A DNA stretch of 64,000 bases, from the NCBI RefSeq assembly GCF_000718555.1, contig NZ_JOAN01000029.1:39275-103274 (forward strand), in the 5' to 3' direction. The translations under genes were made by a program, and so were the position numbers. The notes under the pieces are model-generated. The model did not search any database. It was not told where the DNA came from and worked only from the letters and a program-made list of their open reading frames with translations. Numbering within the stretch: position 1 is the stretch's first letter; every line of letters starts with the position of its first letter. Below, piece by piece: positions 9,100 to 18,606 of the stretch. The DNA is from Micromonospora chokoriensis (GTDB lineage Bacteria > Actinomycetota > Actinomycetes > Mycobacteriales > Micromonosporaceae).

Positions 9100-9559
9100 C
9101 CGGTTCCAGCACCACCACTGTGGTCTCGGACGATCGTCGCGCCGCGTGGGCGTCGAAGTTCTTGTCGGCCTCGCGCCAGCGTGGCCACAGGCGCGATCGC
9201 TCGTCGTCGGTGGCGGCACGACCGTGGACCTGCCGCCGCCCGTCGACCAGATCGACGAACGCGTCGGGACGAGCCTGGAGGTTGAGCCACCAGGCGGGCT
9301 GGCCCTCCCCCCACCCGTTCATCGCCACGGCGACCAGGTTCGGACCATCCTCGAAGTACGCGAGAATGACGCCGCGTTGCTGGCCGGTGCGGCGCCCGAT
9401 CGTGGTCAGCCGCAGCGTGCCCCAGCGGTTCTCGCGCGGTCGCCACAACCCGACCCGGCCGCCAGAGGTTCGGTACAGGCCCCGGTGCACCGACCAGGCC
9501 AGTCGGATGAACCACCGTGGCGGAAGCCACGGCGCCTTCGTCTCCGGACCATCCGACAT
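9089..9559 (-). CDS. Deazaflavin (F420)-dependent nitroreductase-family protein
   Basis: This 156-residue protein has the split beta-barrel of the Ddn family, named for the mycobacterial F420-dependent nitroreductase. Typical features are RLTTIGRRTGQQRGV for cofactor phosphate contact, ILAYFEDGPNLVAVAMNGW and PAWWLNLQARPDAFV. Members bind reduced F420 and reduce quinones or nitro compounds. The start at 9559 is supported by GGGAGG with a 5-nt gap; the earlier ATG at 9574 is less likely. It converges on the tail-anchored protein gene, so it is transcribed separately. The physiological substrate is unknown. Confidence 0.85.
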   Translation of the reverse strand: MSDGPETKAPWLPPRWFIRLAWSVHRGLYRTSGGRVGLWRPRENRWGTLRLTTIGRRTGQQRGVILAYFEDGPNLVAVAMNGWGEGQPAWWLNLQARPDAFVDLVDGRRQVHGRAATDDERSRLWPRWREADKNFDAHAARRSSETTVVVLEPVNG

Positions 9560-9618
9560 GAGGACCTCCCGCATTGACTACTGCTGATGGCGCTCCGCCT
9601 TGGCGACAAGTATGAGGG

Positions 9619-10374
9619 CTAGCGCCGCCAGGCGTCGATGGCGCGTACGCCGTCACGCACGACCCGGTCCAGGATGGCGGGGTTGCCGCTGGTGCCCTCC
9701 CACCCCTGGTCGTCGAAGACGGTGACCACGGTGTCGACGCGGGCCACGGCGATCTGGCTGGTCGCGGTGCCGCCGGTGCGCTCGCCGTTCAGGCTTGTCT
9801 CGGGCCAGGTCCGGGTCAGCAGCAGCGTGTCGTCGCCGACGCTGGGCAGGGCCTGGCTCTTGACGGTGACGCGGTTTCCGGACTGGTCGTACGAGGGGCA
9901 CGCCTGAACTGCGGTGCGGAGACGGCCCAGGTAATCCGAAGCGCCGTCGCCGTCGAAGGTGAAGATGGTCTGGTGGATCATTCCCTGCGGCACGTTGCTG
10001 GAGGGCTCGCCGGCCTTCTGGTAGGTGACGGTCATCGCGGCGCTCGCGGTGACCTGCCGGCCGCCGGTGCCGAACTCGTTGCCACACAGCTTCGGCAGCG
10101 CCTCCTCGACGGGCGTCGTCCGTCGCGGAGACTTCCGTAGCTCGGCGGGCAACTCGACGAAGGCTGAGGTCGGGATGGTCACCTGGGCGGTGGCGCTCGG
10201 CGATGGTGGGTCTGTCGGGGGCGCTGACACCGACGTGGTGGTCGGTGCGGTGGTCGCCGGGGCCGAGCCGGGCGGATCCTCGGTAGCGGTGCAGGCAGCG
10301 ACCAGTGCGATGGTGCCGAGCAGCGCGAGTGCGCGTCGCGTACGGGCCATCGGCCGTGGTGTGTATCGGCTCAT
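9619..10374 (-). CDS. Secreted lipoprotein, unknown sensor-like domain
   Basis: This 251-residue protein has a basic N-terminus, a hydrophobic core and a lipobox LVAAC with the modified cysteine at residue 28. It should be attached to the outer face of the membrane. A Pro/Thr/Ser-rich linker (about 30-70) precedes a globular domain of roughly 170 residues with CGNEFGTGGRQV, MTVTYQKAGEP and a closing DGVRAIDAWRR. The overall plan resembles PknH-type extracellular sensor domains and related actinobacterial lipoproteins, but this is a fold impression only. The start at 10374 has AGGGG at a suitable distance. It is divergent from the argS unit. Confidence 0.65.
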   Translation of the reverse strand: MSRYTPRPMARTRRALALLGTIALVAACTATEDPPGSAPATTAPTTTSVSAPPTDPPSPSATAQVTIPTSAFVELPAELRKSPRRTTPVEEALPKLCGNEFGTGGRQVTASAAMTVTYQKAGEPSSNVPQGMIHQTIFTFDGDGASDYLGRLRTAVQACPSYDQSGNRVTVKSQALPSVGDDTLLLTRTWPETSLNGERTGGTATSQIAVARVDTVVTVFDDQGWEGTSGNPAILDRVVRDGVRAIDAWRR

Positions 10375-10494
10375 CATCACCCCTCGTCTATCCTCGGGCA
10401 GTTCCCTGCGCGGCGTCGACCGAAACGACCACGCCGCAGACGTCGACCGGGCCACCGCAAGCGAATCGACGTGTCGTCGCACCGGCCGGGCCGC

Positions 10495-10507
10495 TATGCT
10501 GCCCCGC
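10495..10507 (+). promoter_or_regulatory. -10 box for a leaderless argS leader transcript
   Basis: TATGCT at 10495-10500 is followed by exactly 7 nt and then the ATG of the leader ORF. That is the classic spacing for transcription starting on the initiation codon, common in actinobacteria. No convincing -35 box is seen. Confidence 0.5.
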
Positions 10508-10600
10508 ATGACCAGCGTGATCGCTCAGTGCACCGGACTGTCGTGTGACGTCCCGGTCGGTGCACAGCGACGCCGGCGATCCGTCGCCCGCCCGCGCTGA
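10508..10600 (+). CDS. Arginine-rich leader peptide upstream of argS
   Basis: This 30-codon ORF begins MTSVIAQCTG and ends RRRRSVARPR. Six of the last ten codons are arginine, including four in a row (CGA CGC CGG CGA). It lacks a ribosome site but has a TATGCT -10 box 7 nt before the ATG, so it is probably translated from a leaderless mRNA. Twelve nt after its stop comes a perfect 10-bp hairpin, and 122 nt after it the argS start. This is the layout of ribosome-mediated attenuation, in which slow decoding of arginine codons reports low charged tRNA-Arg. The peptide itself probably has no other role. Confidence 0.65.
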   Translation: MTSVIAQCTGLSCDVPVGAQRRRRSVARPR

Positions 10601-10611
10601 CCTGATTTCTG

Positions 10612-10637
10612 CGACCGGCGGATCGAGCCGCCGGTCG
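10612..10637 (+). terminator. Candidate attenuator hairpin between leader and argS
   Basis: The arms CGACCGGCGG (10612-10621) and CCGCCGGTCG (10628-10637) pair perfectly around a 6-nt loop and are followed by TTTGCTGG. An alternative pairing exists: 10577-10583 (CGATCCG, inside the arginine codon run) with 10619-10625 (CGGATCG), plus TCGC at 10584-10587 with GCGA at 10611-10614. This would open the hairpin, as an antiterminator does. The U-tract is short, so termination strength is uncertain. Confidence 0.55.
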
Positions 10638-10722
10638 TTTGCTGGTCGTCCTCGGTCCGCCCGTATCTCCCCTGGCAAACGGCTCGCGTGACGGCGCGGG
10701 TCCGAGCGAGAACGGCGTACTC

Positions 10723-12441
10723 ATGGATCTTGAAAAGTTGTTGTCCGACCGGCTGGCGCCGGCGTTCGCGGCGGTGGCCGGCGGCCCGGTCGACCCGCTC
10801 GTGCGGCGGTCTGGGCGCGCGGACTTCCAATCCGACGCGGCGCTGGCGCTGGCCCAGCGGCTCGGCCGCCCGCCGCGGGACATCGCCACCGCGGTGCTGG
10901 CGCACGCGGTGCTCGACGACGTCGGGGTGTCGGCGGAGGTTTCCGGGCCGGGGTTCATCAATCTGACCGTTGCCGACCGGGCCCTGGCCGACCTGGTCGC
11001 CGGGCTGGCCGGCGACGCCCGGCTCGGCGTGCCGTCGACGGTTACCCCGCAGACCGTGGTGGTCGACTATTCGGCGCCGAACGTGGCGAAGGAGATGCAT
11101 GTCGGGCATCTCCGTTCCACTGTCATCGGCGACGCGGCGGTGCGGCTGCTGGACTGGCTCGGGCACCGGGTGGTGCGGGTCAACCACCTGGGTGACTGGG
11201 GGACACCGTTCGGCATGCTGATCGAGCACCTGGTCGACCTCGGTGAGGCCGAGGCCGCGCAGAATCTGTCGATGGGAGACCTGGACTCCTTCTACCGGGC
11301 GGCCCGGGTGAAGTTCGACGCCGACGAGGCGTTCCGGGAACGGTCCCGGCTGCGGGTGGTCGCGTTGCAGAGCGGCGACGAGCGGACCCGGCGGTTGTGG
11401 CGGTTGCTGGTGACGCAGTCCGAGCGGTACTTCCTGACCGTGTACGACCTGCTCGACGTGACGTTGTCCGGGGACGACTTTCGGGGCGAGAGCGCCTACA
11501 ACGACCTGCTCGCGGGCGTCGTCGACGATCTGGGCCGGTTGGGGCTGCTGCTGCCCAGCGGTGGTGCCGACTGCGTCTTCCCGCCCGGGTTCAGCGGCCG
11601 GGACGGCGAGCCGTTGCCGCTGATCGTGCGCAAGAGCGACGGCGGGTACGGCTACCCGGCCACCGACCTGGCCGCGTTGCGGCAGCGCGTCGGCGAGTGG
11701 GGAGCGACCCGGCTGTTGTACGTCGTCGGCCTACCGCAGCGGCAGCACTTCGCGATGGTGTTCGCCGTCGCCCAGGCGGCTGGTTGGCTCAGCCCGCCGG
11801 CCCAGGCTGAGCACCTGGGCTTCGGGTCGATCCTCGGCGACGACGGGCGGATGTTGCGCAGCCGGGCCGGTGAGTCGGTGAAGCTGGTCGGGCTCCTGGA
11901 GGAGGCGGTCGCCCGCGCCACCGACCTGGCCCGCAGGAGAAACCCGGACCTGGACGCCGAGGCCGCCGACGAGATCGGCCGCGCGGTGGGCATCGGCGCG
12001 ATCAAGTACGCCGACCTGTCCGTCGACCGGACCAAGGACTACGTCCTGGACTGGGAACGGATGCTCGCGCTGGATGGCAACACCGCGCCTTACCTCCAGT
12101 ACGCGTACGCCCGGATTCGGTCGGTGCTGCGGCGGGCCGGGGCCGCACCGCGGCCGGACACACCAATCGTGTTCGCGCAGCCGGTGGAGCGGGCACTGAC
12201 GATCGAGCTGCTCGGCTTCGGCCCAGTGGTCGGTGCGGTGGAGCGGAGTCTCGAACTCCATCAACTCGCCAGCTACCTGCACCGGCTCGCGACCGCGTTC
12301 AACGCGTTCTACGAGCGCTGCCCGGTGTTGCGGGCCCCGGACGAGCTGCGGGAGAGCCGGCTGCTGCTGGCCGAGCTGACCGCCCGGACCCTGCGGCAGG
12401 GGCTGCACCTGCTCGGCATCCGAACGCTTGAGCGGATGTGA
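10723..12441 (+). CDS. argS: Arginyl-tRNA synthetase
   Basis: This class I synthetase charges tRNA-Arg with arginine using ATP. At 572 residues it fits ArgRS length. The N-terminal additional domain (about 1-100) is followed by the catalytic motif VAKEMHVGHLRSTVIGD (HIGH-type, near 126), NHLGDWGTPFGML, and KSDGGYGYPATDLAAL. The C-terminal anticodon domain contains YLQYAYARIRSVLRRAG. The KMSKS position reads MLRSRAG near 377; ArgRS is known to vary here, but this version lacks the usual lysine. The ATG at 10723 is the first that matches the family N-terminus. The gene is preceded by the arginine-rich leader and hairpin. It ends 20 bp from the converging ArsR gene. Confidence 0.93.
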   Translation: MDLEKLLSDRLAPAFAAVAGGPVDPLVRRSGRADFQSDAALALAQRLGRPPRDIATAVLAHAVLDDVGVSAEVSGPGFINLTVADRALADLVAGLAGDARLGVPSTVTPQTVVVDYSAPNVAKEMHVGHLRSTVIGDAAVRLLDWLGHRVVRVNHLGDWGTPFGMLIEHLVDLGEAEAAQNLSMGDLDSFYRAARVKFDADEAFRERSRLRVVALQSGDERTRRLWRLLVTQSERYFLTVYDLLDVTLSGDDFRGESAYNDLLAGVVDDLGRLGLLLPSGGADCVFPPGFSGRDGEPLPLIVRKSDGGYGYPATDLAALRQRVGEWGATRLLYVVGLPQRQHFAMVFAVAQAAGWLSPPAQAEHLGFGSILGDDGRMLRSRAGESVKLVGLLEEAVARATDLARRRNPDLDAEAADEIGRAVGIGAIKYADLSVDRTKDYVLDWERMLALDGNTAPYLQYAYARIRSVLRRAGAAPRPDTPIVFAQPVERALTIELLGFGPVVGAVERSLELHQLASYLHRLATAFNAFYERCPVLRAPDELRESRLLLAELTARTLRQGLHLLGIRTLERM

Positions 12442-12461: not shown

Positions 12462-12833
12462 TCAGCGGGCCTTCTTCGTCGCCCGCTTCCGGGGCGGCGT
12501 CAACAGGTCGGCGATCTGCGCGATCGCGGCGGGCACCAGGCGGTAGTACGCCCAGACCCCGCGCTTGTCGCGTTCGAGCAGGCCGGCCTCGGTGAGGATC
12601 CGAAGGTGATGACTCACCGTCGGTTGGGAGAGGTTGAGCGACGAGGTGAGGTCACTTACCGACGCCTCACCTTCCGGCGCGGACTGGATCAGGCTGAGCA
12701 GCCGGAGTCGCGCCGGATCGGCGAAGGCCTTCAGCACCCCCGCTAGCCGCTCGGCATCGGCCCGCTTGATGGGATCGCCGGTCAGCGGCGAGATCGCAGG
12801 CATGGCAGTTTTCGCAGTTCCCACGCCTGCCAT
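12462..12833 (-). CDS. ArsR/SmtB-family transcriptional regulator
   Basis: This is a small winged-helix repressor of about 123 residues. It has the ArsR pattern LAGVLKAFADPARLRLLSLI, SVSDLTSSLNLSQPTVSHHLRIL as the helix-turn-helix, and RDKRGVWAYYRLVP as the wing. The family responds mainly to metals or redox signals. No CxC motif of the arsenic type is visible, so the ligand is not predicted. The start is uncertain: ATG at 12833 and ATG at 12803 are both possible, and neither has a good ribosome site. ATGGCAG and CTGCCAT form an inverted repeat over 12801-12833, across the two starts, possibly an autoregulatory site. It has no obvious target gene beside it. Confidence 0.82.
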   Translation of the reverse strand: MAGVGTAKTAMPAISPLTGDPIKRADAERLAGVLKAFADPARLRLLSLIQSAPEGEASVSDLTSSLNLSQPTVSHHLRILTEAGLLERDKRGVWAYYRLVPAAIAQIADLLTPPRKRATKKAR

Positions 12834-12939
12834 AGTGACACCAACACCATCAATAAAGCGGCAGAACCGGCACCAGTACCCCAATGGCGTCCGGATCGGG
12901 CCGTGTGGAGCGTTACGAGACTCCACACGGCCCGGTGCG

Positions 12940-17422: not shown

Positions 17423-18606
17423 GACCGGCCTCTCCTGCCGCGCTGGTTCCGCCGGTCCGGTCGTGCGGCGGACCCGAGGTCGGGTGTCTTGTAGGTGACC
17501 AGGGGCGTCGTGCTGACCACAGGCGTGGCCAGGTGGTGCTCGAAGAGGTCGGCGATCACCTGCTCGATGCGCTTGTACGCGCCGGGCGCCTCCTCGAAGA
17601 GCAGCTGACGATCACCGCACACCACAAGCGACCCCACCGGGGTACGCCTCAACTCCTCGACCGTGTGCTTGGCCCGGCCCCGCCGCAGGGCGTCGGCGCG
17701 CGACATCTTGCGGCCAGCGCCATGCGCCACGGAATGGTTGGCGTCCGGCCCGGCGTGCGCGGCCACCAGGTAGGACGCCGTTCCCCGGGTGCCGGCGATG
17801 AGGACATCCCGGCCGTCACCCGGTGCCGCGCCCTTGCGGTGCAGGTAGACCCCGTCCCGGACCTCGACCAGGTTGTGGCACTGGTCGACGATCGGCGCGG
17901 CTGGCTCGGCCCCCAACGCGTGCGCGACCCGAGCGGCCAGCACCCGGCGGTTGAGCGACCCCCAGCGCACGGCGTCGTCGTGCATGGCGAGGTAGGCGGC
18001 GGGGTCGGGGGCTGCCCCGGCGCCGTGGACCTCGGTGTGTGCCCGCAGGATCCGCTCGCCCAGACCCCGGGAACCGCTGTGCACGATGAGCACGAGATCG
18101 CCCGCGTCGATCCCGAGCCGGCTCGCGTGACCCACGTCGAAGATGGTGTCGACGCGGGCCAGCTCCACGAAGTGGTTGCCCCGGCCGACGGTTCCGAGGC
18201 CGTCCAGGTGACCGGCCGGGACGTCGCCGTCGACAGCGGCCCAGGCGGGGTCGTCGGCATCCCGTACCGGGTCGAGCGCCTGGTCGAGGTCGGGGAACCG
18301 GGCGGCGAGGCGTTCCGGTACGGCCCGCTTGAGCCGGATCGGAAACACCGCGATGCCGCAGCCGATATCGGAGCCCACCAGGAACGGGTAGAGCACTGTC
18401 GACGCCATGGCTGCGCCGATCGGCGCGCCCTTGCCGGGATGCAGGTCCGGCATCGCGGCGACGTGCCGCATCCCGGGCAGGGCGGCGACCTGCTGGCACT
18501 GCGCGAGCGCGTCGGACTCGATCCAACTCGCGGGGGAGGCGAACACCGTGACGGTGGCCGGGGTGGACGAGGGCAGGGTCTCCCGAGGGAGGTGGTGCTG
18601 GGACAA
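17419..18606 (-). CDS. RtcB-family RNA ligase (RtcB2 type) paired with prfH
   Basis: This 395-residue GTP-dependent RNA ligase joins 2',3'-cyclic-phosphate and 5'-OH RNA ends. Core motifs are present: DLHPGKG (54-60), GSDIGCG (78-84, metal cysteine), GNHF (143-146), HSGSRGLG (from 176), and HGAGRKMSR with the guanylated histidine at 295. It is shorter than tRNA-splicing RtcB, as RtcB2 proteins often are. Initiation appears to be at a TTG (18606) with a weak AAGTGAG site. It overlaps prfH by 4 nt. The pair is expected to repair cleaved ribosomes, for example after ribotoxin attack. Confidence 0.9.

Follow-up and report, generated by a model that had tools for sequence, protein, structure and literature searches.

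An arginine-codon leader and predicted hairpins precede a second gene for arginyl-tRNA synthetase in Micromonospora and many relatives

Why does a short reading frame ending in a cluster of arginine codons lie directly upstream of an arginyl-tRNA synthetase (ArgRS) gene? The locus belongs to a 64,000-nucleotide stretch of Micromonospora chokoriensis DNA (the window; contig NZ_JOAN01000029.1, positions 39,275 to 103,274), in which an initial annotation had proposed ribosome-mediated attenuation of argS. Comparison of upstream sequences indicates that a leader and hairpins precede a second ArgRS gene in Micromonospora and many relatives. We consider it likely that this is a conserved arginine-tRNA-charging sensor controlling the gene in cis, i.e., a riboregulator that works through a leader peptide and governs an auxiliary ArgRS. 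The cell probably makes more of the gene's product when charged arginine tRNA runs low.

The leader and its gene across the family

The leader ORF (10508..10600, forward strand) comprises 30 codons plus TGA and translates as MTSVIAQCTGLSCDVPVGAQRRRRSVARPR. Translation bears out the six arginine codons described in its final ten: the residues occupy positions 21–24, 28, and 30, and are encoded on the forward strand (10568..10597) by CGA CGC CGG CGA (10568–10579), CGC (10589–10591), and CGC (10595–10597). A TATGCT −10 box (10495..10500, forward strand) lies, as annotated, 7 nt upstream of the leader ATG, an arrangement of the leaderless type in which the A of the ATG would be the transcription start. 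Directly 3′ of the leader, on the same strand, is the cognate synthetase gene (10723..12441), which encodes 572 aa, scores 428 bits against TIGR00456 (cutoff 261.65), and contains PF00750, PF05746, and PF03485. Since a canonical argS is found next to lysA elsewhere in the same genome (the canonical type is present in 245 of 250 family genomes), we regard the gene in the window as encoding an auxiliary ArgRS rather than the housekeeping enzyme and refer to it as argS2. The first view of argS needs correction here: this gene is a second copy and not the cell's only source of ArgRS.

We compared 130 regions upstream of the same argS type, drawn from 129 family genomes; these are 130 of at least 150 listed places (29 loci and the window, then 100 more). 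An ORF with its own −10-like box (TAnnnT, counted when 6–8 nt upstream of an ATG or GTG start codon) and at least four Arg in its final 14 codons was found in 100 of the 130 regions, the hairpin type described below in 96, and both together in 89. This family-wide comparison across Micromonosporaceae, which the initial annotation had suggested as a check, came out in favor of the leader. The leaderless-type Arg leader was present in 43/46 regions of the window's genus (g1) and 40/41 of g29. In a second locus set, where the upstream regions of 37 of 80 loci were examined, 14 of the 37 carried an Arg leader. A broader scan of 168 regions returned some Arg-containing ORF in 140, many of them chance occurrences. 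There was no Arg leader in L133, and seven relatives lacking the leader (L011, L013–L017, and L055) carry a TAnnnT box 6–8 nt before the argS start itself, so that in these relatives argS seems to be a leaderless gene that escapes this kind of leader control.

Alternative helices and the output of the leader

Helices were compared in 95 unique sequences (56 Micromonospora-type and 39 Actinoplanes-type), obtained from 105 regions with a GGCGG-type hairpin by removing L112 and L146, for which no start was found, and eight duplicates; L129, whose ORF was wrongly assigned by the picker, is likewise outside the 95. Consensus folding from whole-region MAFFT alignments was blurred by variable spacers. 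Two further alignments, of 37 rows (A2) and 42 rows (A3, without L111), were picked by hand to span the diversity, with almost every row taken from the 95.

Within the leader ORF, minimum-free-energy folding predicts a hairpin, H1 (10555..10602, forward strand), in which 10555–10563 pair with 10594–10602 and enclose the Arg run. Region 1:2 pairing, region 2 being the last leader codons, reached p ≤ 0.05 in 17/56 Micromonospora-type and 21/39 Actinoplanes-type sequences. The perfect 10-bp hairpin previously noticed shortly after the leader stop, H2, is present at 10612..10637 on the forward strand (10612–10621 with 10628–10637; loop ATCGAG); it has an extra outer G–U pair (10611–10638), starts 11 nt beyond the stop, and lies 9–16 nt past the stop in 91 of the 95 sequences. 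Among the 37 selected sequences 95.2% of H2 cells were paired and the core pairs were nearly invariant. Both sides had changed in 23 cells, a number reached by none of 500 shuffles, all within the two basal pairs; on two other measures H2 did not exceed shuffles (both-side-changed pairs, 489/500; further pair types, 381/500).

The 5′ arm and loop of H2 also contain region 3 (GGCGGATCGAG, 10617..10627, forward strand), whose alternative partner is a downstream stretch, region 5 (CTCGGTCCGCC, 10651..10661, forward strand). In the 42 rows of A3 this 3:5 pairing occupied 96.4% of cells, four pairs had changed on both sides (as many in 2/500 shuffles), and the covariation score was reached by 0/500, figures that carry a bias favoring 3:5 because the best match of the two regions determined where the segments end. 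Across the 95 sequences a 3:5 match at p ≤ 0.05 was found in 54; the 41 without one include all four g32 sequences, L127, L094, and L199. H2 and 3:5 share bases and are mutually exclusive, and both show both-side changes in the hand-selected rows; comparative sequence thus supports both, while H1 is predicted. The pairing originally suggested as the alternative to the hairpin, between the Arg codons and the H2 5′ arm, does exist in the window (−23.3 kcal/mol), but its class (1:3) beats shuffles in only 7/56 Micromonospora-type and 8/39 Actinoplanes-type sequences and general conservation of this pairing is not supported. It is 3:5, and not the Arg-run pairing, that shows compensatory changes as the alternative to H2.

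How would these helices act on argS2? One answer is classical or Rho-dependent transcription attenuation, in which H2, or untranslated RNA past it, would terminate transcription when the leader is read quickly, and pairing of regions 2 and 3 would serve as antiterminator when a ribosome stalls on the Arg run. The 2:3 complementarity this requires (CGRCCGCC with GGCGG-R-UCG) occurs in the majority of the 37 selected sequences, where its core pairs are nearly invariant; it beats shuffles in 29/56 Micromonospora-type sequences but in only 3/39 of the Actinoplanes type. The regular position of H2 past the stop fits attenuation, as do the Streptomyces attenuators without a uridine run described in the part of PMC8079986 available to us and the use of Rho by the Salmonella speF leader (available part of PMC6386406). 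Against it, none of the 95 sequences has five or more T within 8 nt past H2, a terminator scan of 9500–11500 found none, and the 3:5 helix is left unexplained. The absent U-tract indicates that H2 is not a classical intrinsic terminator, and with the negative scan it leads us to reject H2 as an ordinary terminator. Transcription attenuation, classical or Rho-dependent, is, in our judgment, rather doubtful.

Because the region 5 stretch can also fold beside the argS2 start, occlusion of the ribosome-binding site (RBS) is no less probable than termination as the output. The candidate sequestor hairpin, H3 (10641..10716, forward strand; minimum-free-energy prediction), ends 6 nt before the start codon, and the RBS region is predicted to pair with region 5 rather than with the codon run. 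Median H3 z scores were −2.61 in the 56 Micromonospora-type and −0.99 in the 39 Actinoplanes-type sequences; the window's own H3 was not above shuffles (z −0.59, p 0.26), and the 5:6 pairing alone beat shuffles in only 4/56 and 8/39, respectively. The Shine-Dalgarno sequences of the Micromonospora genes look weak by eye. We lean slightly toward translation initiation, rather than termination, as the main output.

Under the riboregulator reading, a ribosome translating the leaderless ORF would reach the Arg codon cluster and be slowed there when Arg-tRNA charging is low, and its position would bias the choice among the mutually exclusive helices H1, H2, and 3:5. Unless held by region 3, region 5 would fold against the sequence just 5′ of the argS2 start as H3. 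With ample Arg-tRNA, H2 and H3 would form and argS2 would be poorly expressed; with scarce Arg-tRNA, region 3 would capture region 5 and argS2 would be made. This direction draws on physiology and precedent: since region 5 is free with either 2:3 or 3:4 formed, helix reasoning did not settle the sign of regulation. When equilibrium folding was modeled with a block placed on the leader, either at the first Arg pair or at the stop, RBS accessibility barely moved (mean difference −0.015, n = 55; +0.023, n = 39) and H2 was dominant in every modeled state, suggesting that a switch would need kinetics or a helper factor.

Why the arginine codons are kept

The same equilibrium models, in which no ribosome-dependent switch appears, would suit an RNA element that a protein or some other factor binds, with the Arg codons kept only for base pairing and leader translation irrelevant. 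The Arg run is indeed largely conserved at the base level (CGACGCCGG in 32/37 and CGACGCCGGCG in 23/37 A2 rows), and a factor-bound RNA has a precedent at leuA, having been suggested for the LEU element (available part of PMC1262725). The codons themselves argue against this explanation. Arg clusters persist despite differing Arg-run bases or downstream RNA (e.g., L010, L012, L132, and L170), and the Arg run is retained in clades whose downstream RNA differs, including Catellatospora (L012, L018), L150, and L170 of g39. The third bases of the Arg codons vary (codon −8: CGG 27, CGA 15, CGC 1), while beside the run the amino acids at codons −12, −6, −5, and −3 vary among relatives; the codon tables were built only from rows picked by Arg pattern, so that Arg invariance within them is by construction. 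The start codon also remains 6–8 nt past the −10 box even as the N-terminal codons differ. Together these observations make a factor-bound RNA with an untranslated leader unlikely.

All 95 sequences have at least three Arg in the final 14 codons and 87 have at least five; the exact pattern RRRRxxxRxR-stop occurs in 43, and RxxRxxxRR-stop in 21 others. The N-terminus, length, and neighboring codons of the relatives' leaders vary while the Arg-rich end is shared, an outcome in support of the leader reading on the comparison of arginine with flanking codons that had been put forward as a test. Conservation of the ORF and its Arg tail would also be expected of a small Arg-rich peptide functional in its own right, a very improbable explanation given that nothing but the Arg-rich end is kept, with no constraint on the N-terminus or the length, and that the sole strong copy in the window's genome precedes argS2.

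Accidental occurrence of Arg-rich ORFs and of GC hairpins in a GC-rich genome would fit the unremarkable folding energy of the region alone (z −1.46; 17 of 200 shuffles equally good), but a chance origin is refuted by the joint conservation of leader and hairpin in the 89 relatives and can be given virtually no weight. In a background of 310,462 strand-bases, a test for an ORF of 12–45 codons with TAnnnT 6 or 7 nt upstream and at least five Arg in the final 14 codons, followed by an 8-bp hairpin, matched nothing beyond the window's own ORF, and it was positive in 10 of 14 target regions. An RNA model gave E 1e-13 at this locus versus 0.0018 at the genome's next-best place, i.e., one strong copy; it scored 80.1 and 72.6 bits in the two matching genomes of the window's genus, and its matches to 26 others in a class sample of 345 genomes were weak (27.6–36 bits). 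The case rests on conservation, not on a single sequence.

A more specific version of the riboregulator reading is offered tentatively. The leader would be terminator-free and sense Arg-tRNA, the ribosome on the leaderless ORF deciding whether the hairpin loop and arm capture the strand that would otherwise cover the start of argS2. The sensing tail would in some lineages belong to a full-length protein, forming the C-terminus of a second glutamyl-tRNA synthetase whose gene lies just upstream; the short leaders elsewhere are perhaps remnants of that enzyme.

Relation to known leaders and significance

The auxiliary tryptophanyl-tRNA synthetase (TrpRS) of Streptomyces is reportedly a second, antibiotic-resistant enzyme under leader-type attenuation (Vecchione and Sello, 2010). 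argS2 would resemble it as a second synthetase gene under leader-type control, but its leader reads Arg rather than Trp and no intrinsic terminator was found there; we know of no inhibitor or resistance role for the argS2 enzyme. Ribosome-mediated transcriptional attenuation of the Streptomyces gene is named in a title cited in PMC4787780, and TrpRS1 is also tabulated in PMC9437257, in the parts of these papers available to us.

According to the available text of PMC8079986, Streptomyces lividans TK24 has leader peptides before leuS, trpS, alaS, and thrS, those of leuS, trpS, and thrS being leaderless. Like argS2, these genes follow a short ORF with cognate codons, in several cases with no uridine run; the words argS and arginyl do not occur in that paper, and, unlike in that study, the argS2 leader helices were compared across many species. 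An Arg-codon leader, orf34, precedes Salmonella speF, where pausing at low arginine alters RNA structure (available part of PMC6386406). It shares with the argS2 leader consecutive Arg codons in a short ORF, a structure that can cover the next gene's RBS, and the lack of a visible rho-independent terminator, but it belongs to a different phylum, controls ornithine decarboxylase, has its own Shine-Dalgarno sequence, and involves Rho and RNase G in its output. The S. lividans and speF leaders both serve as precedents for the riboregulator reading.

For Actinobacteria, the available part of PMC1262725 assigns candidate attenuators to leuS and trpS and places at leuA the LEU element, which likewise has no terminator and in which the codon run is tied to the RBS; at argS2, by contrast, the hairpin loop and arm have a downstream stretch as their partner. 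Conserved structures upstream of arginine operons were not seen in that survey, as far as its available part goes. The same source reports that mutating candidate regulatory codons of the Streptomyces coelicolor ilvB leader had no effect and that leuA leader mutations had effects inconsistent with classical attenuation, results that count against the riboregulator reading at argS2. It also covers the control of synthetase genes by T-boxes, among them translational ones at actinobacterial ileS. Like a T-box, the argS2 leader would sense tRNA charging to control a synthetase gene, but through a translated ORF; neither a T-box nor any other Rfam family matched 10495–10723 at E up to 5, the nearest being a weak tRNA-Sec match inside argS2.

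Arg-reading leaders are already known from Salmonella speF, but for another gene; we found none before argS in the open-access literature, and subscription papers may hold one. With the leader described here, ArgRS joins the few synthetases whose genes are preceded by a cognate leader peptide; the leader also provides a comparative example of leader-peptide control without a U-tract terminator. Kept across a large actinomycete family, the arrangement predicts when and why these bacteria turn on a spare ArgRS, and it could help to reveal a natural inhibitor of ArgRS, just as the indolmycin-resistant TrpRS did in the case of tryptophan.

An auxiliary arginyl-tRNA synthetase gene and its leader

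The argS gene starting at 10723 encodes a protein that matches TIGR00456 (428 bits in a profile search) and carries the three usual ArgRS domains. A second ArgRS encoded elsewhere in the genome is 29% identical to it, and lysA lies directly 3' of that second gene; argS-lysA is the usual gene order in actinobacteria. Of 250 family genomes sampled, 245 gave a match to the canonical type at E ≤ 1e-100 (232 among the 234 good ones). With a canonical copy also present in its own genome, the window's argS is therefore an auxiliary copy (argS2). An ArsR/SmtB-family regulator gene (12465–12926, minus strand) is convergent with argS2, and 17712–17764 on the minus strand holds a weak, sub-threshold match to the Rfam COG2908 RNA (23.6 bits vs. 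a gathering threshold of 58.7).

Re-reading of the window confirmed the sequence features listed in the initial annotation: a TATGCT box (10495–10500), a 30-codon ORF with its ATG at 10508, its stop at 10598–10600 and the C-terminal end RRRRSVARPR, and a perfect 10-bp hairpin (H2, 10612–10621 paired with 10628–10637), with argS downstream. An Rfam search of 10495–10723 gave no match at E up to 5, and folding of the leader region, judged on the window sequence alone, was not exceptional (z = −1.46).

Conservation of the leader among relatives

The comparison across Micromonosporaceae proposed in the initial annotation drew on 129 family genomes, which supplied 130 regions upstream of argS genes of this type (130 of at least 150 places listed). 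Its expectation held for much of the family: 100 of the 130 regions contained a leader ORF whose start lies 6–8 nt downstream of a TAnnnT box and whose last 14 codons include four or more Arg, among them 43 of 46 regions in the window's genus and 40 of 41 in genus g29. An H2-type hairpin was present in 96 regions, and both parts together in 89. No leader was counted in genera g31 (n = 4), g40 (n = 3) and g44 (n = 4) or in several genera seen once; in genus g16 all five regions had leaders without an H2-type hairpin. In an additional sample (37 of 80 named loci), 14 of the 37 had a leader.

Leader peptides among the relatives include MTSSHAFPTASPDVLFGALRRRRSRDRLR, MHSTFSERRRRLHGRR, MHSINRERRRTTTLRLS and MSSIELRRVLLDRLS, and others end in ERRRIVAAR; only the Arg-rich end is common to them. 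Among 95 unique hairpin-type sequences (56 of Micromonospora type, 39 of Actinoplanes type), 43 end in RRRRxxxRxR-stop and 21 in RxxRxxxRR-stop, and 87 have at least five Arg in the last 14 codons. In rows picked by their Arg pattern, a choice that itself fixes Arg, Arg codons are variable in their third base, and the amino acid differs between rows at codons −12, −6, −5 and −3. The combined ORF test retrieved 10 of 14 targets vs. no other ORF in 310,462 strand-bases of background. Seven loci of Catellatospora type and related (L012, L018, L150, L152, L158, L170, L184) keep the Arg leader (ERRRIVAAR-stop and similar) but have a different RNA after it; visual inspection of several such loci shows a GGCAGC..GCTGCC hairpin that overlaps the stop codon of the leader.

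The RNA model found one strong copy in the window's genome (E = 1e-13; next match E = 0.0018). Under strict filters, strong matches across 345 genomes of the class were confined to two of the window's genus (G000 and G045), with weak matches (27.6–36 bits) in 26 others.

RNA pairings and a candidate mechanism

In 37 selected sequences, 95.2% of H2 cells were paired and 23 cells were changed on both sides, a number reached in 0 of 500 shuffles; these changes were confined to two basal pairs, two other measures did not exceed shuffles, and the core, being invariant, is uninformative. The strongest signal beyond H2 came from a helix between its 5' arm and loop (region 3) and region 5 (window 10617–10627 with 10651–10661). 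In 42 selected sequences, whose segment ends were chosen in a way favouring this pairing, 96.4% of cells pair, four pairs were changed on both sides (one being G-C in 24 and A-U in 18), and no shuffle reached the covariation score. A 3:5 match at p ≤ 0.05 occurred in 54 of the 95 unique sequences and was missing from 41. The helix draws in part on loop bases that H2 leaves unpaired, so the stability of H2 is not enough to account for it.

Pairwise tests at p ≤ 0.05, counted separately for the Micromonospora and Actinoplanes types, gave 36/56 and 29/39 for 3:5, 17/56 and 21/39 for the Arg-codon run with the last leader codons (1:2), 29/56 and 3/39 for those codons with region 3 (2:3), and 4/56 and 8/39 for region 5 with the RBS region (5:6). 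The pairing of the Arg run with the 5' arm (1:3) put forward in the initial annotation was recovered in 7/56 and 8/39 and not in the remaining sequences. The stretch from H2 to argS folded better than shuffles in 41 of 56 Micromonospora-type sequences (p ≤ 0.05; median z −2.61) and weakly in the Actinoplanes type (9 of 39; median z −0.99); the window's own stretch did not (z −0.59). In the predicted folds a median of 10 (Micromonospora type) and 9 (Actinoplanes type) of the 12 nt between −16 and −5 relative to the argS start is paired. GCGTAC occurs within 45 nt upstream of the argS start in 63 of the 95 sequences, and CGTAC in 73 (window 10698–10722 and the equivalent place in relatives).

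Comparative sequence data support the leader with its Arg codons and promoter-like box, together with H2 and the alternative 3:5 helix. In the model we propose, the leader ORF would be translated leaderless, ribosomes would slow at the Arg codons, and the RBS would be occluded through a candidate sequestor hairpin (H3, 10641–10716), so that Arg shortage would derepress argS. In equilibrium folds, blocking the leader at various positions left RBS access almost unchanged; under this model the decision between helices would therefore fall during transcription. Rho-dependent termination is a possible output. The initial annotation's reading of H2 as a terminator-type attenuator became less likely: no U-tract follows the hairpin in the window or in any of the 95 sequences, which argues against simple intrinsic termination, and a scan of 9500–11500 found no terminator. 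We place the argS2 leader among the leader-peptide regulators of actinobacterial synthetase genes, and not with classical terminator attenuators, since the intrinsic terminator that defines the latter was sought and not found.

Leader history and known systems

In seven relatives without the leader (L011, L013–L017, L055), a TAGATT, TAGGTT or TAGGGT box precedes an argS start codon by 6–8 nt, so that these argS genes themselves seem to be leaderless. Visual inspection suggests that L133 (genus g32), which keeps the hairpin, has lost the stretch of the ORF that carries the Arg run, apparently a natural deletion. Mapped on a tree of 38 ArgRS, presence of the leader requires three changes; its well-supported branches are compatible with one origin, and a single change occurred in 0% of 200 bootstrap trees.

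In four genomes (G121, G093, G079, G247) a second gltX lies directly upstream of argS2 (full-length genes at L212 1675–3078 and L214 1453–2856). The G121 product matches TIGR00464, and the other gltX of these genomes are 73–77% identical to the second. Where other loci have the leader, these have the Arg-rich C-terminus of this second gltX (gltX2), whose GRERTLARLRAALDRLS (RERTV in G247) falls at the position of the leader end. The leader ORFs of L127 and L132 have DNA in common with the gltX2 tail (local scores 34 and 28 vs. shuffled maxima of 19.5 and 17.0); ordinary gltX tails also score 27–30, and the leader of the window itself is unremarkable (19.0 vs. 20.5). The short leaders may be gltX2 remnants, or a gltX2 tail may have replaced the leader.

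As excerpted, a survey of Actinobacteria from 2005 placed predicted attenuators at trp operons, trpS and leuS; its predictions further included leader peptides for ilvB and cys, a LEU element for leuA and translational T-boxes for ileS, and it listed none for arginine operons (PMC1262725). RNA-seq of S. lividans found eight leader peptides, among them upstream of leuS, trpS, alaS and thrS, and that study mentions neither argS nor arginyl (PMC8079986). Searches of openly accessible papers yielded nothing relevant on an argS leader, in agreement with the initial annotation, which knew of no described case. The nearest functional precedent for a leader at an auxiliary argS is the Streptomyces auxiliary TrpRS. 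In Salmonella, ribosomes pause at two consecutive Arg codons of the speF leader ORF when arginine is scarce, and the response runs through Rho, RBS occlusion and RNase G (PMC6386406). Arginine reading by a leader is thus already known; a leader that reads arginine for argS appears to be new.
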